Source of the DNA: Peribacillus loiseleuriae
Lineage (GTDB): Bacteria; Bacillota; Bacilli; Bacillales; DSM-1321
Direction of reading: 5' to 3'
Assembly: GCF_001183985.1 (NCBI RefSeq)
Contig: NZ_LFZW01000001.1
Coordinates: forward strand, 2,367,357-2,431,356
Length of the DNA: 64,000 nucleotides
Under the pieces are notes generated by a model. That model did not search any database. It was not told the DNA's origin and saw nothing but the letters and a program-made list of their open reading frames with translations. The translations under genes and the position numbers were made by a program. Positions 11,642-24,161 of the stretch are shown here, one piece after another. Within the stretch, counting starts at the first letter, position 1, and every line of letters starts with the position of its first letter.

Positions 11642-11683
11642 AAGAATCCGTTTTGATCAATCTTTTTTTCAAAACGGGTTCTT
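11642..11683. repeat. Covarying hairpin family A, copy A1
   Basis: AAGAATCCGTTTTGA pairs with TCAAAACGGGTTCTT around a TCAATCTTTTTT loop. It shares loop and inner stem with copies at 12475, 21071 and 31588, but the outer stem sequence differs while staying paired. Confidence 0.8.
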
Positions 11684-11701
11684 TTAAGTCAACGTAAGAT
11701 G

Positions 11702-11754
11702 TGGGTTTGTGAGGTATTTTTGATCAAACTTTATTTTAAAGCTACAATAATGAG
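11702..11754 (+). repeat. Family B repeat (MIKLYFKAT-like fragment), copy 1
   Basis: GTGGGTTTGTGAGGTATTT followed by a TTG-initiated LIKLYFKAT reading frame, ended after 11 codons. It directly follows hairpin A1. Confidence 0.6.
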
Positions 11755-11874: not shown

Positions 11875-12384
11875 ATGAATAGAGATCAAGCCCTTTTTAT
11901 ACTTAGAAAATACTCTCCAATGCCTGATGAAGAAGATTTAACTGAGGGAATGATAGATGAGTTCGCTAGTGCAATTGAGTATTTTGGAGATAACCCAGAT
12001 CCAAGTTACATTGAAGCTATTATGATGACTTTCAGTTTAGATGATTTGTATGGAGTATATGATCATGCAGTCGATGTATTAAGAAATTTTACTAATGAAC
12101 AGGTAATCCCACATTTAATTGAAGCGATACAAAATAAACATGAGAGAAGAAGATACTGGGGAACAGAGATAGCTAAATTTTTTCCCGATGAAAAGTTAAT
12201 TAGTTCTTTATCAACATGTATTAACGACCCAAATGAAGAAATCAGAGCTTATGCTATTTTCGCTTTAAATTGTATTGGTCATAAGTCGGTTTTACCAATG
12301 TTACATGAAAGATTAGCTAAAGAACAAGACGAAGAAGTTTTCGAAGAGTTAAAGAATGCTATTTCAAAGTTAGAAAAGATTTGA
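11875..12384 (+). CDS. HEAT-repeat-like protein
   Basis: 169-residue soluble, acidic, all-helical protein. The ATG at 11875 has GGTGGAGGTG 8 nt upstream, better than the earlier in-frame ATG 11845. Repeated helix pairs of about 30 residues (for example AVDVLRNFTNEQVIPHLIEA, then AIFALNCIGHKSVLPMLHER) fit HEAT/PBS-type repeats that scaffold protein contacts. No enzymatic motif is seen. Similar lone HEAT proteins in Bacillus genomes have no assigned function. A hairpin ends the transcript downstream. Confidence 0.75.
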   Translation: MNRDQALFILRKYSPMPDEEDLTEGMIDEFASAIEYFGDNPDPSYIEAIMMTFSLDDLYGVYDHAVDVLRNFTNEQVIPHLIEAIQNKHERRRYWGTEIAKFFPDEKLISSLSTCINDPNEEIRAYAIFALNCIGHKSVLPMLHERLAKEQDEEVFEELKNAISKLEKI

Positions 12385-12429
12385 GCGATCTTCCATTAAA
12401 AGGCGCTTTAATTGAAGATGGATCACAGA

Positions 12430-12464
12430 AATGATCAATCTTTTTTATAAAAGATTGATTAACC
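12430..12464 (+). terminator. Terminator after the HEAT-like gene
   Basis: Imperfect IR AATGATCAATCTTTT / AAAAGATTGATT around TTAT. It shares GATCAATCTTTT with hairpin family A. Confidence 0.6.
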
Positions 12465-12474
12465 GGGATATATT

Positions 12475-12515
12475 AAGAGCGTGTTTTGATCAATCTTTTT
12501 TCAAAACACGCTCTT
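12475..12515. repeat. Covarying hairpin family A, copy A2
   Basis: AAGAGCGTGTTTTGA pairs perfectly with TCAAAACACGCTCTT around TCAATCTTTTT. Confidence 0.85.
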
Positions 12516-12551
12516 TCCTTTTGTTCATTTATTAAAGTAATTAGTATCAAT

Positions 12552-12689
12552 TTGATCGAACTTTATTCCAAACCTACACTATATGAGATTCATAACCGGG
12601 TGGCAGGTTATCTTAAAGAGATGTATGGAGATATTGGTGATTGTGCCTTAGCAGATCATCAAGATCACGTATACGTCCAAAGTTGTTAA
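12552..12689 (+). pseudogene. Family B repeat extended into a 45-codon frame
   Basis: Frame LIELYSKPTLYEIHNRVAGY... continues to HVYVQSC. Its start aligns with MIKLYFKAT at 18258 and 21149, but no ribosome site is visible. It follows hairpin A2, repeating the A-then-B order. It looks like the longest surviving piece of a small decayed gene. Confidence 0.4.
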
Positions 12690-12837
12690 GGTAGGTAGGA
12701 GCAGGAGCTAATAGGCTTCTGTTTTTTTATTGCCACAAAAGACGTACCAGTCCATATAAGACGGGTTATATGGACTCTGTTCTTTTCAAAAGTCTCTGTT
12801 AAAGTTTTTTCTTAACCCCAATAAAAAAAGTACTCGA

Positions 12838-13050
12838 TTAATCGGATACATACTTAATGATTCCATGTAAATAAACGGAGTATTCTCGCTGCACATACTC
12901 TCTTAATTTAATTTTTCCTTCTCTTTCTAATTCTTTAACCAATTCTTCAATCTTATTTTCATCTTCTTTAGTATTCTTAGGAATTTCTAGTGAAAATAAA
13001 TTACCTTGATGGGCACTCTGAATCTTTTTTAATAGTTTCTCTTTATTCAT
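12838..13050 (-). CDS. Small hypothetical protein
   Basis: 70-residue charged protein starting at ATG 13050 behind AAAGGGGATG. It has a long helix (KEDENKIEELVKELEREGKIKL) followed by a short beta-like tail, compatible with a small winged-helix or partner-binding fold. There is no membrane segment. Function is unknown; coding is supported by the ribosome site and the absence of competing frames. Confidence 0.6.
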   Translation of the reverse strand: MNKEKLLKKIQSAHQGNLFSLEIPKNTKEDENKIEELVKELEREGKIKLREYVQREYSVYLHGIIKYVSD

Positions 13051-13380
13051 TGAGGCATCCCCTTTATCTACTCGTAGAACAAATAAAAACCTAAATGTTG
13101 CTCTGGATTTATTATATCCGATTAACGTATACGAAAAGTAAAAAACGAGAATATATTCTTGTTATCAATGAGAATCTGTTACATATCCATTTTAATTCAT
13201 TATTTTTCAGGCAGGTTAATTTAAATGGCACCGATTATCGCTACTTGAGTTACGAAATACCTTTACTAGCAGATGTGCAAGATTGATATTTATCCATATT
13301 GTCACTGTCAAGAAACAGTTGTTCTTTACGGTTAAGAGCAAGGGCACCTGGTGAAAGTAAATCTTAGCTATGACTAACTA
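13051..13380. other. Intergenic, fragmentary
   Basis: A frame at 13095-13286 ends ...NGTDYRYLSYEIPLLADVQD and may be a decayed gene tail, but it lacks a ribosome site and is not recognised. No other feature seen. Confidence 0.3.
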
Positions 13381-13539
13381 AACTCCCTTGCTCAATATCA
13401 ATATATTTCCCGTCATATTCATTTGTGATGCTTCGAGTAGTCTTAAGGCGTCTTTCTTTAGATGTTTTTTTAGATAAAGGCTTCAAGCATACTTCGGGCG
13501 TTAGCACTACAGCATGTAAGAAAGTAAAGAGCGACCTTT

Positions 13540-13723
13540 CTAACATGTTGTACGTGTCGCTTCGGCATTAAATGGCCCGATAACCACGGACTGTACGGCT
13601 AGCGCCTACATTCCATAGGTTCCTGTCCCATTTACGGCTACGCCGCCATACCGAACGAACCGAAAACCTGAAAATCAAAGAGATAAAGACGAAAGGAATG
13701 CAGCCATACGGCTGCTTTTTATT
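13540..13723 (+). other. GC-rich gene-free stretch ending in an intrinsic terminator
   Basis: Markedly richer in GC than its surroundings, with no credible ORF. It ends with GCAGCC-ATAC-GGCTGC (13700-13715) followed by TTTTTATTTTATTTTT, a canonical terminator. It may be a short RNA gene or the tail of one. Confidence 0.45.
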
Positions 13724-13763
13724 TTATTTTTCCCTTTTGCCTTCCGAATCGTAAAACAGCGCA

Positions 13764-13909
13764 AGCCTTCTAACCTTCCAGCCGGTAGGACACCCGAACC
13801 TTTCCGGCAGGAAGCTAAGAAGCCTAGTCAATCGGTCAAGGGGCACAAAACTTTTTTATTAAAAACGCTTCGCAACATAAAAAACTTTTGCGCTCAGAAC
13901 GCCCTTGAC
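13764..13909 (+). ncRNA. Candidate structured RNA upstream of radC
   Basis: Two nested-looking helices are readable. At 13764-13825, AGCCTTCT, CTTCC and GCCGG pair in order with CCGGC, GGAAG and AGAAGCCT, separated by small symmetric internal loops. At 13834-13909, GGTCAAGGG pairs with CCCTTGACC across about 58 nt. A third hairpin lies at about 13947-13968 (AAGGGG/CCCCCTT). The array ends about 150 nt before the radC ribosome site. Structured RNAs upstream of radC-type genes have been reported in other bacteria, but relatedness cannot be judged here. Confidence 0.5.
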
Positions 13910-14117
13910 CCATTGCCTATGCGTGTTTTTCGTTCTACTTGCAAAAGGGGAAAAATAATCCCCCTTTGGGGAACAGACTCCGCTTCGAAAAACAAAAAGA
14001 AAAACTTAAAACCCCAAATTCATTAAAGAAAAAACCTTTAGGAGGTGCCCAAAAGGCCAGACCGAAAATCAATGGAGCAGAAATGTACAAAATCACAACC
14101 ACAAAGGAGTGTTTTTA

Positions 14118-14432
14118 ATGGAATTAAACCCAATTTTTGAAGTGGTACGTATTAAACAGGAAGTAAGGGAAACGTCAGAGCCATTTTCATCATATCGAAT
14201 TGCATCACCAGAGGATGCGCAAGAATTGGCGGCTTCATTTATCGCAGATGAAGATAGAGAAGTATTTCTTGTGATGATGCTCAACACCAAAAATCAGGTT
14301 ATAGGGCTTCATAGAGCACATGTAGGGAGTCTGAATGCAAGCATAGTTCATCCGCGCGATGTCATAAAAAGCGCTATTCTAAATAATGCCGCATCCATTA
14401 TTGTCAGCCATCAGCACCCATCAGGTGACCCC
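14118..14432 (+). pseudogene. radC: RadC/JAB-domain protein, 5' part split by a transposon
   Basis: N-terminal 105 codons of a RadC-like JAMM-fold protein. The ATG at 14118 has AAAGGAGTG 7 nt upstream. The family core is present: SPEDAQELAASFI, EVFLVMMLNTKNQVIG, then ASIIVSHQHPSGDP. The JAMM motif HxHx7SxxD is cut after SGDP. Its SxxD half (SPSRED) lies at about 21327-21341, so the gene continues beyond the Tn554-like insertion. Joining both parts gives a continuous frame of normal RadC length. RadC-like proteins of this short form are common on integrative and plasmid elements. Confidence 0.88.
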
Positions 14433-14443
14433 ATAAACATAGT

Positions 14444-14490
14444 ATCCTAAACTAGAGTACTCTAAGTACTCAAAGTTTAGGATTTTTTAA
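14444..14490 (+). terminator. Terminator at the left end of the transposon
   Basis: ATCCTAAACT (14444-14453) pairs with AGTTTAGGAT (14474-14483), followed by TTTTTTAA. It would stop radC transcription from entering the transposon. Confidence 0.7.
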
Positions 14491-14563
14491 ATTCAATACT
14501 TTAACTAATGAATATATATAGGTGTTATTTATAGTAGTTAAAGTATTTGAAGGTGGTGGCGAA

Positions 14564-15649
14564 ATGAAAGTTCAAAAAGTAGTTGTTGAGGAAAAATCAT
14601 ATCCATTATACATACTTCTAGACAAAAATTTTGAAGTGATAGAACCGGTTAAGAGATATATAAAGTACTTGGATAATACGGGGAAAGCGCCAAATACGAT
14701 TAAAACATATTGTTATCATCTCAAGCTGTTTTATGAATTTATGAGTCAAAGGGGAATTGGATTAGAAGATTTGGAATTCGAGGAAATGTCAAACTTTCTG
14801 GGGTGGTTAAGAAATCCAACGGGAGAGGTAAAGGTAATAGATTTACAACCAAAGAAGGCTAAAAGAGAAGAAACATCTGTTAATGCCATACTTAATGCTG
14901 TAACTAGTTTCTTAGAGTATTTAAATCGTACAGGAGATTTTAAAGCTATAGATATGACTAAAGAAGCAAGGGGAAGAAATTTCAAGGGGTTTCTTCACCA
15001 TATTTCTAAAGGTAAATCTTATCAAAAAAACATTTTAAGGCTTAGGGTCAAAAAGAAACTTGTACAAGTATTAGAACTCGAACAAGTTAAAGCAATAATC
15101 GATGCGTGTCATACAAAAAGAGATAAGTTACTTATTATGCTTATGTATGAAGGAGGGCTTCGGGTAGGAGAGGTATTATCACTCCGTATCGAAGATATTT
15201 CTACTTGGGATAACCAGATTAATATCACGCCAAGAGATCACAATGAAAACGGGGCTTATATTAAGCTTAGAAAAGAACGAACAATCGATGTTAGCAAGGA
15301 ATTAATGGCTTTATATACCGATTATTTAGTTCATGAATATGGGGAAGATTTGGAGCATGATTATATATTTATAAATCTAAAAGAATCTTATTTTGGGCAA
15401 CCTCTAAAATATCAAAGTGTATTAGACCTTATAAGGCGATTGGTAAAACGGACAGGGATTACCTTCACTGCCCATATGTTACGCCATACGCATGCCACAG
15501 AACTCATTAGAAGTGGATGGGATGCTGCTTACGTACAAAAAAGGCTAGGTCATGCACATGTACAAACAACACTTGATACGTACGTTCATCTTTCTGATCA
15601 GGATATGAAAAATGAATATAAGGCGTATCTTCAAGGGAGAGAAACATAA
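14564..15649 (+). CDS. tnpA: Tn554-type transposase A (tyrosine recombinase)
   Basis: 361 residues, the same length as TnpA of Tn554. ATG 14564 follows GAAGGTGGTGG; the upstream in-frame start at 14522 lacks a site. An N-terminal SAM-like core-binding domain (about residues 25-140) precedes the catalytic domain. The catalytic set is visible: R in [23 protein letters not shown] (HxxR), H in [13 protein letters not shown] and the Tyr nucleophile in TLDTYVHL. It acts with TnpB for site-specific insertion. The stop is two bases before tnpB. Confidence 0.94.
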
Positions 15650-15651
15650 AA

Positions 15652-17565
15652 ATGAAATTTCCAAGCGTTGCAACTAATCGAAAGCTTGTCACTAGCACAG
15701 AGATTAATAAAAAAATAGCGGATATGACTAGTGTCTTACAAGGGTTTTTGGCAGCAGATAGATGGGATATAAGAATTTGCCCACATCCTAGTGCGATTGA
15801 GTTAAGTAAGAATCCATCATTAAAAAATCGTTGGGTAAATTTCAATAAAGTCGAAAATATCTGGTTGAGAACAGAATTAAAGTACTTTTATTATGTTCAC
15901 TTAAATAATGGAACTTGGAATGCAAAATCTGTTTGGATTAGAAAAGGAACAGTGATAAGCCGAATGTTAGGGTTTTTAAATTTGAAATATCCTGGCATTA
16001 CATCTATAACTGAGGTGCCCATAATAAAAGCTTTGACGGAATACCGAACTTACTTAGCGGAACAAGGAGTAAGAACTACGACTAAGAACTATAAGCTTGA
16101 TGTAAATCAACAGAAAATCACTGTACATGCGAACTCCTACTACGTTACTAATCTTAAGCAATTTATGGAATTTTATGAGGATTTCTATTTTGATGGCGAA
16201 GAATGGGATAAAGATGTTTGGAATCGAAGAAAACTTTCGTTACCGGAAGATAAGGTAAATCCAACATCCTATGAGTATATAATCAATTTTAAGGGTTTTG
16301 AAAATGATTATTTTAAAGAAATCGTCAAGCGGTATTGTAAACTAATGTTAAACACATCCAGCTTTTCTCACGTAAGAGATATAGCCTCAAAATTAAAAGA
16401 GTTTTTTAATATTATGAACAAAAATTGTGAAGGTATACGAAGGATTCATCAATTAACTAGAAATGAAATTGAGCAATATTTAAATTATATTAATTTAAAG
16501 GGATTAAAACCTAGTACTACAACTGGACGAATATCTACTTTAGACGTTTTTTTCACTACAATTCAAAGGTATGACTGGGAGGATACTCCTTCTAAAATCC
16601 TGATCTTTCAAGAAGATTATCCTAAATTGCCGAAGGCACTACCACGATATATTGATGAACATGTACTTGAACAATTAAATGGGAAATTAGATAAATTGGA
16701 ACCTTATATAGCCGCAATGGTTATGGTAATACAAGAATGTGGCATGCGTATCAGTGAACTTTGTACATTGAAAAAAGGGTGTGTCATAACTGATAAAGAA
16801 GGGGATTGCTTTTTAAAGTATTATCAGTGGAAAATGAAGAAAGAACATATCATTCCTATTTCTAAAGAAATTGCTGCATTGATATTAGTTCAAGAGCAAA
16901 GAGTGGCTGATGAACTCGATGATGGATGTCAATATGTATTTCCCCGAAAAGATGGCTCTCCGTTGAAGCAAGATACCTTCAGGGTTAAATTAAATGAATT
17001 AGCTTATGAAGAAAAGATATCGGATAATAAAGGAGAGATTTTCCGATTTCATGCTCATGCCTTTCGGCATACAGTTGGCACTAGAATGATAAACAACGGA
17101 GTGCCACAGCATATTGTTCAAAAATTCTTAGGGCATGAATCACCAGAAATGACTGCAAGATATGCCCATATTTTTGATGAAACTCTAAAGAAAGAGTTCA
17201 TAAAGTTTAAGGAAACTTTGGTGACGAATAACGGTAGCATTCTGGATTTAACCGAAGAAAATACTGAAGCTGACAACACAGATCTTCAATGGTTTAAAAA
17301 GAATATCAATGCACAAGCACTTCCTAATGGCTATTGTCGTTTACCAGTAATTGCCGGACCTTGTCCTCATGCAAATGCTTGTTTAGATTGTACGAACTTC
17401 TGTACAAGTAAACAATTTCTAAATGAACATGAAGAGCACTTAGACCGAACTAAAGAAATATTAAATAGGGCTAAACAGAACCAATGGCAGCGTCAGGTTG
17501 AAACTAACGAACGTGTTAAAAATAGATTAGAGCAAATTATTCATTCGTTAAAGGAGACGAATTAA
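15652..17565 (+). CDS. tnpB: Tn554-type transposase B (tyrosine recombinase)
   Basis: 637 residues, close to the 630 of Tn554 TnpB. A long N-terminal DNA-binding half precedes a tyrosine-recombinase domain with R in [38 protein letters not shown] (Tyr nucleophile). A Cys-rich C-terminal knuckle follows ([19 protein letters not shown]), probably binding zinc. It begins two bases after the tnpA stop without its own clear ribosome site, suggesting translational coupling. All catalytic residues are intact. Confidence 0.94.
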
Positions 17566-17566
17566 G

Positions 17567-17932
17567 ATGACTAGAAAGAGTAACACAACTGCCATAATTC
17601 AACTATCTAAAGAAAAGTCGGAGAAGACAAGAACTAAGGTTGAAAAGACAATTTCAGAGATGGCATTGAAAAAAGAGAGGATTAATTTTAATTCCGTTGC
17701 ACAAAAGGCAAATGTTTCAAAGTCATGGCTTTACAAACAAAAAGACATCAGAACTAGAGTAGAGACATTAAGAGGGATGCAAATAAATGAGTTAGCCCCT
17801 CGTAAACCTAGTAAAAGTCTCCGTTCAGAGGATGTCTTAATAAAGACCTTAAAAAGCCGTATAAAGGCACTAGAAAAAGAGAACGAACAGTTAAAGGATC
17901 AAGTTCAAAAATTACATGGCAAGCTGTTTTAG
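17567..17932 (+). CDS. tnpC: Tn554-type accessory protein C
   Basis: 121 residues (Tn554 TnpC is about 125). Basic N-terminal region with a helix-turn-helix-like segment (NFNSVAQKANVSKSWLYKQ) and a C-terminal coiled coil (LKSRIKALEKENEQLKDQVQ). In Tn554, TnpC influences frequency and orientation of transposition. It starts immediately after tnpB, forming a three-gene operon. Confidence 0.9.
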   Translation: MTRKSNTTAIIQLSKEKSEKTRTKVEKTISEMALKKERINFNSVAQKANVSKSWLYKQKDIRTRVETLRGMQINELAPRKPSKSLRSEDVLIKTLKSRIKALEKENEQLKDQVQKLHGKLF

Positions 17933-18123
17933 CGGTATCGTGCTTCTTGTAATTGACAGGGTATTCAGATTATAGTGTAAACTTTTGCTTTAGGTATTTG
18001 TTAAAATAAACTTGAAAAGTATAATTTATGAGATCGTTTTTCAACAATAGGGCCATTTAACGGAATAACTTTGTGAAAAACAGCTGTTTCATGAAATAAT
18101 AAAGGCGATATTGGGGATTACTT

Positions 18124-18216
18124 ATGACAAAAATAATAATGGAGACAAGAGTAGTAAATGATATTCCAATTTTAAGTATTTTTCAGGAGAAATTACATAG
18201 TTGTCCGTTGGTATTT
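18124..18216 (+). pseudogene. N-terminal fragment of an alpha/beta hydrolase
   Basis: The frame from ATG 18124 reads MTKIIMETRVVNDIPILSIF and then ...SCPLVFFF, the typical strand leading to the oxyanion HGxxG of a YitV-like serine hydrolase. That motif is missing: the sequence switches at about 18215 to the family B repeat. It is a truncated relic inside the transposon. Confidence 0.45.
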
Positions 18217-18219
18217 TTC

Positions 18220-18344
18220 TTTTTATTTATTGTAAAATGTAGGTTTGGGAGGTATTTATGATCAAACTTTATTTTAAAGCTACAAATAATGATAATTTTT
18301 TTATTATAAATATTCATTCGGAGGAAATGAAGAACTACAATTAA
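18220..18344 (+). repeat. Family B repeat, copy with an intact 28-codon frame
   Basis: TTTATTTATTGTAAAATG, a GGGAGG ribosome site, and then an ATG at 18258 giving MIKLYFKATNNDNFF... to a stop at 18344. The 5' part matches 21110-21172 closely. It could encode a small peptide or be the 5' end of a lost gene. Confidence 0.5.
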
Positions 18345-18350
18345 ACTTGT

Positions 18351-18389
18351 AAAAAGGGCAACGTCTTTCGAGACGTTGCCCTTTTTAAT
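18351..18389 (+). terminator. Perfect 16-bp terminator
   Basis: AAAAAGGGCAACGTCT and AGACGTTGCCCTTTTT pair around TTCG, followed by AATTAAT. Confidence 0.9.
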
Positions 18390-18559
18390 TAATAGTATTT
18401 TTGTTAAAAGACTTTCCTTAACCGTCCGCTAAGTTGAGCCTAAATTTAGGTTATTTCACTTTTCTCATGTTCCATCAACTTTGTATGACTTCAATTGGTG
18501 GATATTGTGAAATCTTTGTAAGAGTAAATAGGAACTATTTTTGTTTCGTAATTGTTTAT

Positions 18560-18690
18560 AATCTAGGGAAATTGTTGTTTATAGCGTCGATAAACAAAAA
18601 GAAGCAGCTCTAGTTCAACGTGCCTTTAATTTGATTAAATATTCTTTACGAAATGTGGGGTTTTTCACGTAGACCAGGGATTCAAATAAA
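18560..18690 (+). pseudogene. IS3-type transposase relic
   Basis: The stretch reads IVVYSVDKQKEAALVQRAFN, and in a shifted frame HVDQGFK, matching the region around the second catalytic Asp (H-x-DQG) of IS3-family orfB. It is short and frameshifted. Confidence 0.4.
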
Positions 18691-18807
18691 AAAAGTGGAA
18701 ATAGATGATTTATTAACCTAGTTTAAAATTAAATAATTACTAAAATAACTGGTTGAAAGCAGCAAAACCCCTACAAATCAGCCTTTTGTTGATTTTAAAA
18801 AACTTTG

Positions 18808-18836
18808 TTGACATGCTATGCGTTGCGTAGTATGAT
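18808..18836 (+). promoter_or_regulatory. Sigma-A promoter of the padR operon, with dyad
   Basis: TTGACA (18808-18813), 17-bp spacer, TATGAT (18831-18836). The spacer holds CTATGC-GTT-GCGTAG, a near-perfect dyad well placed for repression by the PadR protein encoded downstream. Confidence 0.75.
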
Positions 18837-18934
18837 GTGTGCACAAGTAATATTGTACTCGTTAAAGGCAAGACTTTTTCAACGAATGTGTATTATTGGA
18901 GCTTCGATCAAAGGGCTGTGTAGGAGGTGATGTT

Positions 18935-19252
18935 ATGGATATACAATTAAAACGTGGCTTACTTGAAGTTTGCGTATTGACAGTTCTTTCAAAAGAAGAC
19001 TCGTATGGATACAAAATAGTCAAGGATTTATCTGAGCATATTGAGATTGCTGAATCAACATTGTATCCAATCTTAAAGCGTTTGGAGACCCAAAATTGCG
19101 TGACAGTTTACACGATTGAACACAACAGCCGATTGCGAAAATATTACAAAGTAGAGCAACAGGGTAGAGATAAAATTCAGGACTTTCTAAATGACTGGGA
19201 GTCTGTATTAGCTCTATATAAATTTGTTCAGGAAGGAGCAGAATATGAATAA
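18935..19252 (+). CDS. PadR-family transcriptional regulator
   Basis: 105 residues. ATG 18935 follows AGGAGGTGAT; the longer in-frame start at 18896 lacks a site. A winged helix (YGYKIVKDLSEHIEIAESTLYPILKRLE) is followed by a short C-terminal dimerisation helix. PadR proteins of this type sit first in operons with DUF1700 and DUF4097 genes and repress them. It overlaps the next gene by 8 bp. A dyad in the promoter spacer is the likely autoregulatory site. Confidence 0.92.
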   Translation: MDIQLKRGLLEVCVLTVLSKEDSYGYKIVKDLSEHIEIAESTLYPILKRLETQNCVTVYTIEHNSRLRKYYKVEQQGRDKIQDFLNDWESVLALYKFVQEGAEYE

Positions 19253-19817
19253 ATCAGAATTTTTATCAAAACTCGATGCTAAACTTAGTACCTTGCCTCG
19301 AAGTGAAATTAACAAATTTCTTGCATATTATTCAGAAATAATTGACGATCGTATGGAAGATGGAATGAGTGAAGAAAATGCAGTACGTGGTCTTGGAGAC
19401 ATCGAAGAGATAGCACAGGAAGCAATACTTGATGCTACACCTCTCCCGAATCTCATTATCCCTAGTGGATCACTTTCTAAATTAGATATTTTACTCTTAC
19501 TTATGTGTTCGCCATTAATCATTGCTTTATTTGCTTTGATTTTCGTTTTTTATGCAGCTGTATGGTTAGCGATCATCGGGCTATTTTTACTCGATCTTTC
19601 CTTCATGTTGGCTGGTATAGCAGGGATCGTTGCTTCGATTGTCGATTTTAGTGACAATATGCCAATTAGTATACTTATGTTTATTGGCAGTTTGATTTCT
19701 ATTGGTATTGGGATCTTTACATTCGCCCCAATTAAAGTGATTTCCAAAAAAATATTGGGACTGACGACATGGTTCATGAGAAATATTAAGTTGAGATTAT
19801 TTAGAAAGAGGTTATAA
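19245..19817 (+). CDS. DUF1700-domain membrane protein
   Basis: 190 residues starting at ATG 19245 behind GGAAGGAG. The N-terminal 60 residues form the DUF1700/HAAS-type helical region (FLSKLDAKLSTLPRSEINKF, then YYSEIIDDRMEDGMSEENAV). Four hydrophobic segments fill the rest. In Firmicutes this family is encoded between PadR and DUF4097 genes and is thought to act in envelope-stress signalling; no enzymatic motif is visible. Confidence 0.88.
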   Translation: MNKSEFLSKLDAKLSTLPRSEINKFLAYYSEIIDDRMEDGMSEENAVRGLGDIEEIAQEAILDATPLPNLIIPSGSLSKLDILLLLMCSPLIIALFALIFVFYAAVWLAIIGLFLLDLSFMLAGIAGIVASIVDFSDNMPISILMFIGSLISIGIGIFTFAPIKVISKKILGLTTWFMRNIKLRLFRKRL

Positions 19818-19820
19818 ATT

Positions 19821-20630
19821 ATGAAAAAAACGTTTAAGAAAATTGCAGCTGTTATTGTTACGCTTGGTTTAGCGATCATTATTTCTGCTTGTACAACTGA
19901 TTCTGATTCGCAAAAAAAACCGATTTCATACGAGGAAAAAAGTTATGCTATAAATGCAGATGAAGTTACCCAAATATCTCTGTCTGCCAAAGGCCGTACA
20001 GTTGAAGTGATAGAATCGACCGACAATAAGATTCATATTAAGTACTTTGAAAGCGACAAGGAATTTTATGAAGTAAATGTTACAGACGAAAATGAATTAG
20101 TGATGAAATTGGCAACTGATAAAAATTGGAAAGATTATGTAGGTCTGGACACTGACAAAGCTCATCGTACTGTACAAATAGCTGTTCCAAGTGGTATTTC
20201 TAGCGGAGTAAACATCCTTACTTCGAAGGGAAGTATTGTTTTATCAGACGTAAATATAGGTGGTTCAGTTGAAGCGACAACTTCAGATGGCATTATAAAA
20301 ATGACTAATGTAACAGTTAATAATAATTTGAAATTGGTAACGAAAAATGATGATATCGTTTTATCTAAAGTAAGTGCAGTAGGTACCATCGATGCTGTAA
20401 TCTCAAATGGCAATATAAAAGTGGCAAAAATTGCGGTTGACGAAGCATTGAAATTGACAACGAAAAATGGTCATATTACAGGAACTATTGTAGGTTCATA
20501 TGATGTATTTAGTATTTCTAGCAGCGCTTCCAAAGGTGATAATAATCTACCTGAAAATAAAAAAAGTGGTGATAAGACATTAAACGTCAGCACTAATAAT
20601 GGTGACATAAACCTTGAATTTGTTGATTAA
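19821..20630 (+). CDS. DUF4097-domain lipoprotein
   Basis: 269 residues with a lipoprotein signal (basic start, hydrophobic helix, lipobox IISAC). The mature part has repeated short strand motifs of the form GSI, GII, DDI, GNI and GHI about 20 residues apart, giving a right-handed beta-helix-like DUF4097 domain. It would be anchored outside the cell as the sensor or effector of the PadR-DUF1700 module. It follows DUF1700 by 3 bp. The transposon cargo ends with this gene. Confidence 0.88.
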   Translation: MKKTFKKIAAVIVTLGLAIIISACTTDSDSQKKPISYEEKSYAINADEVTQISLSAKGRTVEVIESTDNKIHIKYFESDKEFYEVNVTDENELVMKLATDKNWKDYVGLDTDKAHRTVQIAVPSGISSGVNILTSKGSIVLSDVNIGGSVEATTSDGIIKMTNVTVNNNLKLVTKNDDIVLSKVSAVGTIDAVISNGNIKVAKIAVDEALKLTTKNGHITGTIVGSYDVFSISSSASKGDNNLPENKKSGDKTLNVSTNNGDINLEFVD

Positions 20631-20806
20631 TCGCTTCCGCTGAATGCTATGCTCACATCAATTATGTGGATGAAAATGGTCAAACATTATCCAAACTTGA
20701 ATAAGTGTTTGACCATATCCATCATTGATTTCGTTTGAATGGTCAATCTCTTACAGATTGTAGATGATGAAATAATGTCGAGGTTAAAACCGACAAAATG
20801 TTTAAC
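20631..20806. other. Short spacer after the cargo operon
   Basis: Stop-rich sequence with no recognised gene; the terminator at 20807 follows. Confidence 0.4.
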
Positions 20807-20855
20807 GGGCATCAGAAACCATTTAATAAAAAAATGGTTTCTGATGCCCATTTTC
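20807..20855 (+). terminator. 18-bp terminator of the padR operon
   Basis: GGGCATCAGAAACCATTT pairs perfectly with AAATGGTTTCTGATGCCC, followed by ATTTTCC. Confidence 0.88.
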
Positions 20856-21070
20856 CAATTAATCCACTCAAAATGATTATCTTAGAGATTCAAGAAAAAT
20901 TGATGCTTGTTTTCTTGACTTATTGAACTAACGACGCAGCATTCCTGTAATCTGAAAGGAAATCTAGAGTTTGTGAAATAATGCACTTAAGCTAACGGGT
21001 GATTAGTTAAAGATTCGCTCTCCGAAATAATCAATCTTTTTTTAAAAAAACAAACTTAAATCTGCTGGAT

Positions 21071-21111
21071 AAGAACCCATTTTGATCAATCTTTTGTCAA
21101 AATGGGCTCTT
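21071..21111. repeat. Covarying hairpin family A, copy A3
   Basis: AAGAACCCATTTTGA pairs with TCAAAATGGGCTCTT around TCAATCTTTTG. It is preceded by CAAACTTAAATCTGCTG, also found before copy A4 (31569). Confidence 0.85.
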
Positions 21112-21244
21112 AATTATTTATTGTAAAATGTGGGTTTAGGAGGTGCTTATGATCATACTTTATTTTAAAGCTACAACAGAAGTGGTACATACTTATGACC
21201 GTAATCAATTACACCTAACCATTACATTGCATTTTTCCGTTTGA
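21112..21244 (+). repeat. Family B repeat, copy with a 31-codon frame
   Basis: Follows hairpin A3 directly. It contains TTATTGTAAAATGTGGG, an AGGAGG ribosome site and ATG 21149 giving MIILYFKATTEVVHTYD... to TGA 21242-21244. The start resembles the copy at 18258 but the tail is unrelated. Confidence 0.5.
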
Positions 21245-21326
21245 TTTAAATGCGTTAAATACATGTCCTTAAAGTAAAAGCATTGATGTTAATGGATTTT
21301 TAATAACTTACTCTTGATAAGACCCC

Positions 21327-21464
21327 TCCCCTAGCCGTGAAGATATAGAAGTAACGAAGCGATTAGCAGAAGCGGGAAAAATTATTGGAATTGAAGTCCT
21401 TGACCATGTGATAGTTACCAATACTGGAAAGCATGTCAGCTTGAAAGAAAAGGGTTATCTTTAA
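21327..21464 (+). pseudogene. radC: RadC/JAB-domain protein, 3' part
   Basis: C-terminal 45 codons of radC displaced by the Tn554-like element: [20 protein letters not shown], then [11 protein letters not shown] and [10 protein letters not shown] before the TAA at 21462-21464. The SxxD half of the JAMM motif is at the very start. It joins in frame to the part ending at 14432. It has no start signal of its own and should be silent. Confidence 0.88.
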
Positions 21465-21475
21465 AATAAATAACA

Positions 21476-21505
21476 GGCAAAGGGTCCTTTCCCCTTTGCT
21501 TGAAA
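21476..21505 (+). terminator. Terminator after radC
   Basis: GCAAAGGG pairs with CCCTTTGC around a short loop, just after the radC stop. Confidence 0.6.
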
Positions 21506-21506
21506 G

Positions 21507-21919
21507 GAGAAATTTATAATTAGCGAGAATGAAAGAATTAGTGAAAAATAAATATAAACGGAACAGAAACTTACGACCTTTACTCAAGATGAGGGGGAGA
21601 ACGAGTGTTGAGGGAAATGACTGAATGAAAGTTGGTCCAGGCTAATCAATCGTCAGAGGGTGATGATTACGCAATGAAGAAAAAACTACCATTTTTTTCT
21701 TTATTATAGGCCGGCATCGAGCCCTTGCGGCTGCTGAAGCAACCTTTAAAAACGTTTGAAGGATTATGCAAGGTAGTATGAAACAGATGGACAATGGTGC
21801 TCTTGCTTTTCATCCTGTTAGATCTAAACAGTTCCATTTGGAAAATTATCTGAACGTTCAATTGTAGTTGCTTTTGTTTATGCGCTGTTCTTACTTATGT
21901 GGATTTTGAATAAAGTTTG
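21507..21919. other. Decayed sequence between radC and the mqo relic
   Basis: Stop-rich. One frame near 21720-21830 reads LKQPLKTFEGLCKVV and a hydrophobic LLLFILLDLNSSI, perhaps a membrane-protein relic. Nothing firm. Confidence 0.3.
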
Positions 21920-22165
21920 AGTGCGACTTTAGGGACCTCTTGAAAAAATTAGTACCGGAATGGGAAATTACAGTGTTTGATAAGCTAGCAAACGCAGGAG
22001 AGGAAAACTCTAACGAATGGAATAATGCGGGAACGGGGCATGCAGCACTGTGCGAGCTTAACTATACGGTAGAAAAACCAGACGGATCTATAGATATTAG
22101 CTAAGCTATCAAAATTAATGAACAGTTTTAGCTTTCAAGACAGTTTGGGTCTTATCTTGCTAGGC
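21920..22165 (+). pseudogene. mqo: Malate:quinone oxidoreductase, 5' fragment
   Basis: The fragment reads SATLGT, frameshifts, then [20 protein letters not shown] and [20 protein letters not shown], the highly conserved FAD-domain start of Mqo. A TAA follows SIDIS and a TAG follows INEQF. Homology fades at about 22165, just before the IS at 22190. Only about 80 of some 500 residues remain, so this peripheral-membrane TCA-cycle enzyme is not made from this locus. Confidence 0.85.
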
Positions 22166-22244
22166 TCAAGTGGAGTTAGTATAGTTTCTTGGACACGGTT
22201 TAGTTAACTCTCTATGATAAAAAATAAGAGGGGAAGTGTCCGGC

Positions 22245-22517
22245 ATGGAATCAATAAACAAGCGTAATTATAACGATGATTTTAAGAAAATGGTGGTGGA
22301 ACTTTATCACACTGGTAGCTCGGTGAGTACGTTAAGCAGCGAATATGGTGTATCTGAAGTCACAATTTATAAATGGATTAAAGCTCTTACTCCAGTGAAT
22401 GGAGAGGAAAATAGTCTAACACCACAGGATATAACTGAAATCCAAAAAGAGAATCTTCGAATGAAACAGGAAATTGAAATCTTAAAAAAGGCTATGGCCA
22501 TATTCGCCAGAAAGTAA
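22245..22517 (+). CDS. IS3-family transposase, OrfA
   Basis: 90 residues from ATG 22245 (AGGGGAAG upstream; an earlier in-frame GTG 22236 is less likely). A helix-turn-helix (VSTLSSEYGVSEVTIYKWIK) binds the IS ends, followed by a leucine zipper (IQKENLRMKQEIEILKKAMA). An A6 run in CTTAAAAAAGG near the 3' end is a plausible -1 frameshift site producing the OrfAB transposase. Confidence 0.92.
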   Translation: MESINKRNYNDDFKKMVVELYHTGSSVSTLSSEYGVSEVTIYKWIKALTPVNGEENSLTPQDITEIQKENLRMKQEIEILKKAMAIFARK

Positions 22518-22537
22518 CCGATACCGAGCTAACAAAC

Positions 22538-23392
22538 TTGATTCACGATCAAAAAGAAGTGTTCCCCATCCAGTTCATGTGTGAAGTGTTGGATATGCCA
22601 AGAAGCACTTACTATCAGTCCTTGATTAAAACAGAATCAGCACGTGACCGGGAAAACCGACTGCTTCTTGAACAGATTCAGTTGATCCACATCAAGAGTA
22701 AAGGCCGATATGGAGCACCTAAGATTCATTTCCTTCTATTAAAAGCAGGGTTTTCGGTTAGTCTTAAACGAGTTCAACGAATCATGAGAAAGGCGGGAAT
22801 CTATTCGATTACGATTAAAAAATTTCGTCCACAAACAAATAGAAAACCGATTGAGGCACGTGAGAACGTGCTACAACAGGATTTTTCCACGTCTAAATTG
22901 AACGAAAAATGGGTGGCCGATATCACCTATATCCACACTTTGCGAGATGGCTGGTGTTATTTAGCGACGGTCTTAGATCTGTATTCTAAAAAAATCATTG
23001 GGTATTCTTTCTCTCGTTCCATGACGACTGAACTTGTTTTGCATGCTTTAAACAATGCCGTTTCTATCCAACAGCCAACGCCTGGCCTCATTTTGCATAC
23101 AGATCTTGGCTCGCAATACACAAGTGAAGGTTTTAGCCAAGCGCTTAAAGAACAGAAAATTATTCCATCTTTTAGTCGCAAAGGTTGCCCATACGATCAT
23201 GCATGTATTGAATCTTTTCATTCCATTTTAAAGAAGGAAGAAGTCCATCACGTAACCTATTTAAATTTCGAATCGGCGAACGCAGCCTTGTTTCAGTTTA
23301 TTGAAGGCTGGTATAATCGTCGCCGTATTCACGGCCAATTAAACTTTCATACGCCGCAAGAAGTTGAAAATCAGTTCCATCAATCAGCATGA
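22538..23392 (+). CDS. IS3-family transposase, OrfB (DDE integrase core)
   Basis: 284 residues, probably made as an OrfAB fusion by frameshifting because no ribosome site precedes TTG 22538. HTH_21 region (KSKGRYGAPKIHFLLLKAGF) followed by an rve core with D in WVADITYIHT, D in LHTDLGSQYTSEG and E in HACIESFHSILKKE. No stops or shifts, so the element may be active. Confidence 0.93.
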   Translation: MIHDQKEVFPIQFMCEVLDMPRSTYYQSLIKTESARDRENRLLLEQIQLIHIKSKGRYGAPKIHFLLLKAGFSVSLKRVQRIMRKAGIYSITIKKFRPQTNRKPIEARENVLQQDFSTSKLNEKWVADITYIHTLRDGWCYLATVLDLYSKKIIGYSFSRSMTTELVLHALNNAVSIQQPTPGLILHTDLGSQYTSEGFSQALKEQKIIPSFSRKGCPYDHACIESFHSILKKEEVHHVTYLNFESANAALFQFIEGWYNRRRIHGQLNFHTPQEVENQFHQSA

Positions 23393-23555
23393 AAAGTTAA
23401 CTTATTTGTGTCCAGGATATTGACCTAGATCCACAAGCCTAATCAAAATATGTTTGAACATAATTCATTTTTCGCTAAATAATAATTATATTTATTATGT
23501 TAAGTTTTAAAAACAATCATTTTACCTTTCCATTCTTCAATACTTCTTCCCATAT

Positions 23556-23732
23556 TTAATTCATTTTAGTTGTGTGAAATTTTCTAAATACTATTGATAT
23601 TGATATAATTGATGTATCTTTTAATCGACTGAAAGATAAACGTCCATGCTTATTATAAATCGCTCTTAACTCACGCATACAATCATCTTTTGTAATAATA
23701 GGTGGTGTTGAACGTTTCGTTTTTACTTTATT
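23556..23732 (-). pseudogene. Relic resembling a homing-endonuclease-associated repeat
   Basis: Directly in frame after the integrase-remnant stop: NKVKTKRSTPPIITKDDCMR, ELRAIYNKHGRLSFSRLKD. The pattern TKDDCxxELRxIYNKHGRLSFSRL resembles the short helical repeats found with HNH nucleases. No start or ribosome site. Confidence 0.3.
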
Positions 23733-23876
23733 CTAAAATTTCGGCAAAGCATCCACTGCATCCGCCAAATCACTATATGAATCCTTCGAATATTTACTCG
23801 TCGTCGCAATATTACTATGGCCGGCCAACCTTCTTACTTTTTCAATGTCGTTGTTTGAAGCTTTTAGCAACCATTG
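23733..23876 (-). pseudogene. Tyrosine integrase, C-terminal fragment
   Basis: The reverse strand reads KASNNDIEKVRRLAGHSNIA, TTSKYSKDSYSDLADAVDAL, then PKF and a stop. This is the box II end of a phage-type integrase, including the LAGHSNIATTSKYS motif with the catalytic His and Tyr. The rest of the gene is missing. Confidence 0.72.
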
Positions 23877-23945
23877 ACAAGGGTGTAAATAACTTATCCT
23901 ATGTTGTCATAATTAAGCAATCTTTGATTCTGGAGGTGATAAGTA

Positions 23946-24161
23946 ATGATTATTCACCTCAGATTACTAGATAAAATAGAAAATAAAAGGAAAGAAATGC
24001 TTCAAGTTGCAAGTAAAGCAGGATTAAATCGTTCAAAAACAATAAAATGCAGTCAAGAACTTGACAATATTTTAAATTTGCATATTCTTGATAAAGAAAT
24101 TATAGGGTATGATAATGAAATAAAACTACTACTTTTAGATGCTCGAATAGAGAATGATTAG
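23946..24161 (+). CDS. Spo0E-family aspartyl-phosphate phosphatase
   Basis: 71-residue cytoplasmic protein. ATG follows GGAGGTGATAAGTA. The family motif SQELD is at residues 36-40, between two predicted helices (IENKRKEMLQVASKAGLN and LDNILNLHILD). Spo0E-type proteins remove phosphate from Spo0A~P and delay sporulation, so the host is probably a spore former. It is followed closely by the PilZ gene. Confidence 0.85.
   Translation: MIIHLRLLDKIENKRKEMLQVASKAGLNRSKTIKCSQELDNILNLHILDKEIIGYDNEIKLLLLDARIEND

Follow-up and report, generated by a model that had tools for sequence, protein, structure and literature searches.

What interrupted an accessory RadC-like gene in a Peribacillus chromosome, and why do the two halves of that gene now resemble different alleles? 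The gene lies in a 64,000-nucleotide (nt) stretch of DNA from Peribacillus loiseleuriae, referred to here as the window. This covers 2.37–2.43 Mb of a 5.14-Mb contig; the host is a soil bacterium with a genome of 5.43 Mb. Positions given without a prefix follow window numbering, G000 is the host's own genome, and other G and L codes denote relatives' genomes and loci, respectively. The sequence leads us to conclude, with high confidence, that a site-specific transposon has inserted in the gene; it belongs to the Tn558/Tn6188 branch of the Tn554 family and can probably still move. The two halves of its target best match different radC alleles.

The original prediction described a Tn554-like insert with three transposase genes matching Tn554 in order and size. 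Consistent with this, we found tnpA, tnpB and tnpC, in that order, encoding proteins of 361, 637 and 121 amino acids (aa). All have Pfam matches (Table 1) and the first two are tyrosine recombinases. Family reference sizes for tnpB and tnpC are presumably ~630 and 121 aa. Residues R200, H304/R307, H330 and Y340 of TnpA, and R366, H469/R472, H495 and Y504 of TnpB, are all present. They correspond to the R, H-x-x-R, H, Y series that we take to be the recombinase catalytic set. TnpA and TnpB are 90% and 93% identical, respectively, to their counterparts in a relative bearing fexA (L100), and tnpA starts at base 132 of both elements. The left end, ATAAACATAG, and the right end, CTTGATAA, are conserved in relatives. 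Matching segments have ~89–90% DNA identity to fexA records, which are plasmids of Lysinibacillus, Enterococcus and Staphylococcus. Identity is ~70% to plasmid records with erm(A) and ant(9)-Ia, which we assume to be the genes of Tn554 itself.

One full-length copy of the element was found in the host genome. We compared 36 genomes of the genus and 43 of the family. A close full-length TnpB occurs in 1 of the 36 genus genomes, the host's own, and the next full-length TnpB is 31% identical. This distribution is consistent with recent arrival of the element. Misassembly of two copies was considered and is not supported; neither a second full copy nor reciprocal halves appear among the own-genome matches listed.

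On either side of the element, the Pfam RadC profile (PF04002) is matched over positions 1–78 by the left piece (E = 7e-23) and over 79–121 by the right piece (E = 4e-14). The radC frame ends after HQHPSGDP at 14432 and resumes with SPSRED at 21327, exactly where the original prediction had placed the break. Spanning the halves is H-x-H-x7-S-x2-D, which we take to be the JAMM metal motif of the split gene. The HxH codons, CAT CAG CAC, occupy 14409–14417; the Ser and Asp codons are at 21333–21335 and 21342–21344. Hence, since the profile breaks at 78|79 at the junction, the motif is cut between HxH and SxxD; a break inside the motif had also been proposed. Parting HxH from SxxD would be expected to abolish the metal site. 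The 5′ frame continues into the element, where it gains the tail INIVS and stops at 14450.

The split gene appears to be of a short, accessory type. Its 5′ half scores 86 bits against the NCBIfam RadC model, from profile position 83 only; the cut-off of 180 is meant for a whole protein and the halves were scored singly. Uninterrupted genes of relatives are short too (150 aa in G009, for example), and these short intact genes point to the accessory type. An intact, longer RadC gene is present elsewhere in the host genome (G000:C1:3773948-3774307). The accessory gene had no match in phage records and one relative, 55% identical, in viral contigs. Two decayed 5′ pieces of accessory radC lie near 2.0 Mb (G000:C1:1999021-1999192 and 2000180-2000542, within L092). 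Both are 94–95% identical to the window's left half and end before the core.

Relatives provide natural empty sites. When the window halves were aligned separately to ten uninterrupted genes, the gap between them was 0 nt in nine (G009, G029, G033, G004, G122, G015 and three plasmid genes). The plasmid records are named Arthrobacter citreus, Peribacillus psychrosaccharolyticus and Bacillus methanolicus. The tenth gene, in G016, is 12 nt shorter at the site. As the halves abut in nine of ten cases, relatives possess an insert-free version of the gene. The halves align to a single intact protein in these relatives, as the original prediction supposed, and the same gap without an insert was not seen among these genes.

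Occupied sites were sought with a TnpB scan of genomes, which gave 30 related loci; radC halves were then looked for in each. The 5′ half was detectable in 19 loci and its alignment always ended at residue 102–105 (19/19). The 3′ half was also detectable in 19, always starting at residue 1–2 (19/19). At the remaining loci the half in question went undetected, in several cases because the contig ends. The same break in all detectable halves upholds the view that radC is the family's target. In the window, the element sits at this conserved site with tnpA facing the radC start, as is typical of the Tn554 family. Gene order, gene sizes, recombinase motifs, shared ends, target position and empty sites can all be read directly.

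The GACCCC copies reported at the two junctions are both present (Table 1). Because the hexamers are equal, the insert can be placed in seven equivalent ways, from 14427–21320 to 14433–21326. Hence, the exchange point cannot be read from the window copy alone. Boundaries of 14433–21326 had been described as directly readable; the coordinates and the length of 6,894 bp are correct but the exact point is one of these seven. Comparison with relatives places the element proper at 14433–21320 and a carried hexamer at 21321–21326.

Identical hexamers flanking an insert might be a 6-bp target-site duplication, and PMC9616846 does call the hexanucleotide duplicated. However, among 38 loci scanned, both hexamers could be read in 19, made up of 16 from the set of 30 genome loci together with L099, L102 and L103. 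The hexamers differ at 17 of these 19 sites and are equal at two (L061 and L068). In one of the unequal pairs, L072, the right junction is irregular and contains an extra base. Furthermore, PMC3261861 reports that Tn554 inserts without target repeats and that one end hexamer reflects the former target. Duplication is contradicted by the unequal pairs and we consider it very improbable; the GACCCC repeat is better read as a shared core. Separately, section 18 of PMC9616846 gives TACTCA for the inverse complement of GATGTA. The true reverse complement is TACATC, as in PMC3261861.

According to PMC3261861, the Tn554 circle bears the hexamer of the current radC. Mapping that orientation onto the window, the tnpA-side hexamer would be that of the current target and the other that of the previous target. 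GACCCC is also found in the host's longer RadC gene. Its presence there, and on both sides of the insert, means that the previous site cannot be told. By analogy with the family, TnpA and TnpB would excise a circle bearing the 6-bp core of the current target. Insertion of the circle into another radC core would then put the core of the new target next to tnpA and that of the old target at the far end, with no duplication. A circular intermediate has been reported for Tn554 (PMC3261861).

Removal of the insert and one GACCCC copy had been said to restore a continuous frame. It does so, but need not recover the gene's history, since the halves best match different alleles. The left half is identical to the G009 gene at 301 of 315 positions (95.6%) and to the G029 gene at 252 of 308 (81.8%). 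Conversely, the right half matches G009 at 116 of 135 positions (85.9%) and G029 at 132 of 135 (97.8%). A second alignment gave 95.6% and 81.4% for the left half, and 84.8% and 96.4% for the right. The G009 and G029 genes are themselves evenly diverged (82.7% identical on the left and 84.8% on the right). Within the gene, 53 left sites discriminate between them, 47 of which are G009-like; of 21 such sites on the right, 18 are G029-like. The switch falls within 8 nt, between 14429, the last left site, which is G009-like, and 21332, the first right site that can be assigned, which is G029-like. The DNA to the left of the gene is 94–99% identical to G009. On the right, the G029-like tract runs to ~21492; the flank beyond the gene is 89% identical to both alleles and then 73–75% identical to G009.

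We also scanned pairs of alleles for a switch. Both halves were available for 12 of the 22 alleles, the window included, giving 66 pairs; the 10 alleles left out, among them G009c, G028 and G020, have one half only. In the two close pairs that include the window, the cut falls at −3 nt (0/500 shuffles) and +14 nt (p = 0.012) relative to the core. These are the only significant cuts within 20 nt of it. As a control, the occupied L099 gene of a P. frigoritolerans plasmid has halves 93.9% and 98.4% identical to G004; the cut is at −205 and there is no switch at the insertion. With less certainty, we infer that the locus swapped one flank with a different radC copy, either through the element or to its edge, which gave the mosaic halves.

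Several observations weigh against these readings. In the left half, 4 of the 53 sites are G029-like and 2 are neither; in the right half, 2 of 21 are G009-like (21338 and 21377) and 1 is neither (21329). Giving weight to 21338 widens the switch interval from 8 to 20 nt. The mosaic depends on two close alleles, G009 and G029, and positions 13980–14117 are equally near to both (94.2%). Shuffle p values were below 0.05 (uncorrected) in 31 of the 66 pairs, including 29 pairs, other than the two close window pairs, with cuts 113–259 nt upstream of the core. A low p value alone is therefore not special. The equal hexamers of the window copy are uninformative on the exchange point, and movement of the element through a circle is proposed by family analogy.

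Accessory radC genes bear other traces of insertion. G009 has an orphan Tn558-like right end (L088:16128-16333), 97% identical to that of the window and joined through GACCCC to a radC 3′ piece. This lies 11 kb from the intact G009 gene, and tblastn detected no tnp genes in 19 kb of the locus. The host genome has a tnpA–tnpB fragment (genome positions 2538215-2538676), 86% identical and joined to a copy of window 12387–13229. The orphan end and the fragment indicate that accessory radC genes are repeated targets. A third radC copy in G009 (L098:5353-5707, on G009:C1) is a pseudogene with a short deletion beside the core, between two CATCAG repeats.

Which history produced the mosaic? Our odds are conditional on the mosaic being real. 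Ordinary recombination could have made a chimeric radC allele, with the element landing later at its usual site. Several radC copies or relics per genome make recombination between copies plausible. The G009c pseudogene is 87.6% identical to G009a on the left and, on the right, matches it by eye at 51 of the first 54 nt (52/60 aligned) before diverging. However, a switch within 8–20 of ~450 gene nt would be a coincidence of ~2–4%. Among the 12 alleles, significant cuts within 20 nt of the core are confined to pairs that include the window. Similarly, no intact gene joining the window halves is among the matches listed for the genus and family genomes. We regard this order of events as unlikely.

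A coincidence of switch and element is accounted for if two element copies, in radC genes A and B, recombined and deleted the DNA between them, joining A-5′ to B-3′. Joining of the copies by attL–attR recombination, followed by reinsertion, would be a variant. The host keeps radC relics and the 86% identical tnpA–tnpB relic, and the G009 orphan right end is joined to a radC 3′ piece. Hence, several insertions happened in the group. Neither the B-5′/A-3′ product nor a second full copy is among the own-genome matches listed, which tells against this history; we hold it to be a serious contender, somewhat short of an even chance. About equally likely, in our judgement, is replacement of the right flank alone, after insertion, by another radC copy, with a tract that halted at the element and so left its edge there. 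Heterology limits gene-conversion tracts. The G029-like tract is indeed short and the flank farther right resembles G009 again. Against this, identity to G009 on the right never climbs back to the 95% of the left flank, and old sequence would often survive conversion beside the border.

A broader view is that Tn554-family elements may shuffle their target genes. Repeated insertions into the many radC copies of a genus, with later recombination through the element or at its core sites, would yield genes of mixed lineage with a seam at the metal motif. We put this forward tentatively. If it is true, the window locus might be one such seam with the element still inside, a suggestion that we make with equal caution.

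The cargo has three adjacent genes, encoding PadR-family, HAAS-domain and Toastrack proteins, as in a PadR–HAAS–Toastrack module. The HAAS protein is probably membrane-bound and, by eye, the Toastrack protein has a lipoprotein-like N-terminus. A comparative study proposes that HAAS–PadR pairs, often with Toastrack, serve in place of two-component systems in the response to membrane stress (PMC11237479). The cargo operon is a probable envelope-stress sensor, predicted from its domains. PadR would be the repressor, HAAS the relay and Toastrack the scaffold in sensing such stress. The cargo is not a resistance gene; the fexA gene of Tn558 is lacking. A phage-defence function was rejected; HAAS and Toastrack had no PADLOC match and the weak PadR-Csa3 match (E = 5e-4) was read as chance.

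The three cargo genes were not found by tblastn in the available DNA of the 30 related loci; the sole match was a PadR gene (28%) outside the element in L084. The HAAS protein was matched in 7 of the 36 genus genomes, the host's included. The other copies are only 26–36% identical, which lends no support to a Peribacillus origin of the cargo. Among 72,556 plasmid records, seven matched HAAS, with 46–48% identity over the first 60–71 residues only. A literature search by title and start of abstract, which left subscription papers mostly outside, showed no Tn554-family element with such cargo among the matches listed. The cargo is flanked by copies of a widespread repeat, the right one of which meets the Tn558-like right end. 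This arrangement suggests capture from a Bacillaceae chromosome. The ~150-bp repeat has a hairpin and occurs in many Bacillales relatives; besides the two copies in Table 1, the window has one at 11642–11747. Rfam gave no match at the gathering score in window 12000–24000.

The HxH codons of accessory radC are the entry point of a second, different recombinase element, seen in G028, G020 and two P. frigoritolerans plasmids. It encodes a tyrosine recombinase/integrase (358 aa), an HTH protein (102 aa) and a 449-aa annotated integrase that has no Pfam match at E 0.001. Its flanks share CACC, equivalent to window 14415–14418, a tetramer that ends 8 bp before the Tn554 core. In G028 and three more radC 3′ pieces the right junction retains the Tn554 target; it lies just before the radC 3′ piece starting at L186:3685 (minus strand). 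P. frigoritolerans plasmids also have Tn554-like elements with a Type III restriction-modification pair (L102:8019-16421 and L099:8316-16717), assigned by scanning the L102 proteins and by annotation for L099. The Tn554-like element of L102 (NZ_OY970401.1) sits at the Tn554 target left by the second element's right end. Because it follows that right-end sequence, the two elements seem stacked. Both kinds of element appear to use the accessory radC of Peribacillus as a common landing pad.

To the right of the split gene, part of a chromosomal gene recurs at 21918–22159 as a truncated copy, 90% identical to G000:C1:4403692-4403934. The source gene presumably encodes a protein resembling malate:quinone oxidoreductase. 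An IS3-type transposase pair, typed by domains, occupies 22171–23392, and a 50-bp end of it occurs four more times in the genome.

Table 1. Coordinates of the transposon, its target gene, its cargo and the second radC-targeting element (window numbering unless a locus is named).
Feature	Position	Strand	Evidence or comment
Accessory RadC-like (JAB/JAMM) gene, 5′ half, through the D-P codons of HQHPSGDP	14118–14432	+	PF04002 1–78; 95.6% DNA identity to intact G009 gene
Left core hexamer GACCCC, the current target's by published Tn554 data (orientation by our mapping)	14427–14432	+	Empty G009 gene has the same hexamer
Tn554-family element, 6,888 bp proper (14433–21320) plus carried hexamer	14433–21326	+	Ends aligned with relatives; 6,894 bp in total
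tnpA, tyrosine recombinase, 361 aa	14564–15649	+	PF00589, E = 3e-44; at most 95% aa identity to relatives
tnpB, long tyrosine recombinase, 637 aa	15652–17565	+	PF00589, E = 4e-39; 93% to L100
tnpC (DUF6262), 121 aa	17567–17932	+	PF19776, E = 2e-16
Predicted cargo segment, between stretches common to Tn558-like elements	17955–21175	+	Plasmid matches end at ~17954; right-end homology of the G009 relic from 21176
Widespread repeat, partial copy, left side of cargo	18223–18285	+	92% to 21114–21176
PadR-family regulator, 105 aa	18935–19252	+	PF03551, E = 1e-17
HAAS-domain protein, DUF1700-like, 190 aa	19245–19817	+	PF22564, E = 1e-13
Toastrack/DUF4097 protein, 269 aa	19821–20630	+	PF13349, E = 2e-14; LiaG match below its cut-off
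Widespread ~150-bp repeat, its end adjoining the start of the Tn558-like right end	21025–21175	+	~20 own-genome matches
Right core hexamer GACCCC, brought along from the former target according to the Tn554 literature (orientation by our mapping)	21321–21326	+	
RadC-like gene, 3′ half (SPSRED...), nearest allele not that of the 5′ half	21327–21464	+	PF04002 79–121; G029 97.8%, G009 85.9%
Second radC-targeting element	L147:6016-9158, L146:10016-13158, L134, L135 (G028, G020)		

The window element is new to the Tn554 family, its cargo is unusual and its target is unusually mosaic. In staphylococci, listeria and enterococci, Tn554 machinery is described mainly as a vehicle for drug resistance; here, in a Peribacillus, it moves a predicted membrane-stress sensor. 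The uninterrupted genes of sister species serve as a natural comparison. The mosaic halves offer a sequence-level route to asking whether such elements rearrange their target genes, and the mosaic target is the part most worth follow-up.

Tn558 is named as the fexA transposon in PMC9616846 and PMC3788773. The window element resembles it in tnpABC (~89–90% DNA identity to the fexA records), in its ends, and in radC position and orientation. Unlike Tn558, which carries fexA and an oxidoreductase gene, it carries the PadR–HAAS–Toastrack genes, and its target is an accessory radC in Peribacillus. For Tn6188, the qacH element of Listeria monocytogenes, PMC3788773 prints tnpA at base 132 with 361 aa. 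The window element has the same offset, protein length and relative radC site; cargo and host differ. Traits of Tn554 itself are the lack of a target repeat, carry-over of the hexamer and the circle (PMC3261861). The window element shares with Tn554, from Staphylococcus aureus, the radC target and the three genes tnpABC, but DNA identity is ~70%, gauged on plasmid records with erm(A) and ant(9)-Ia. Finally, the L099 and L102 elements of P. frigoritolerans plasmids have tnpABC in the same accessory radC family and at the same site, the 5′ side of the L102 element being the end of another element. They differ from the window element in their recombinase proteins (64–82% identical), in the L099 tnpB, which is in two frames, and in their restriction-modification cargo.

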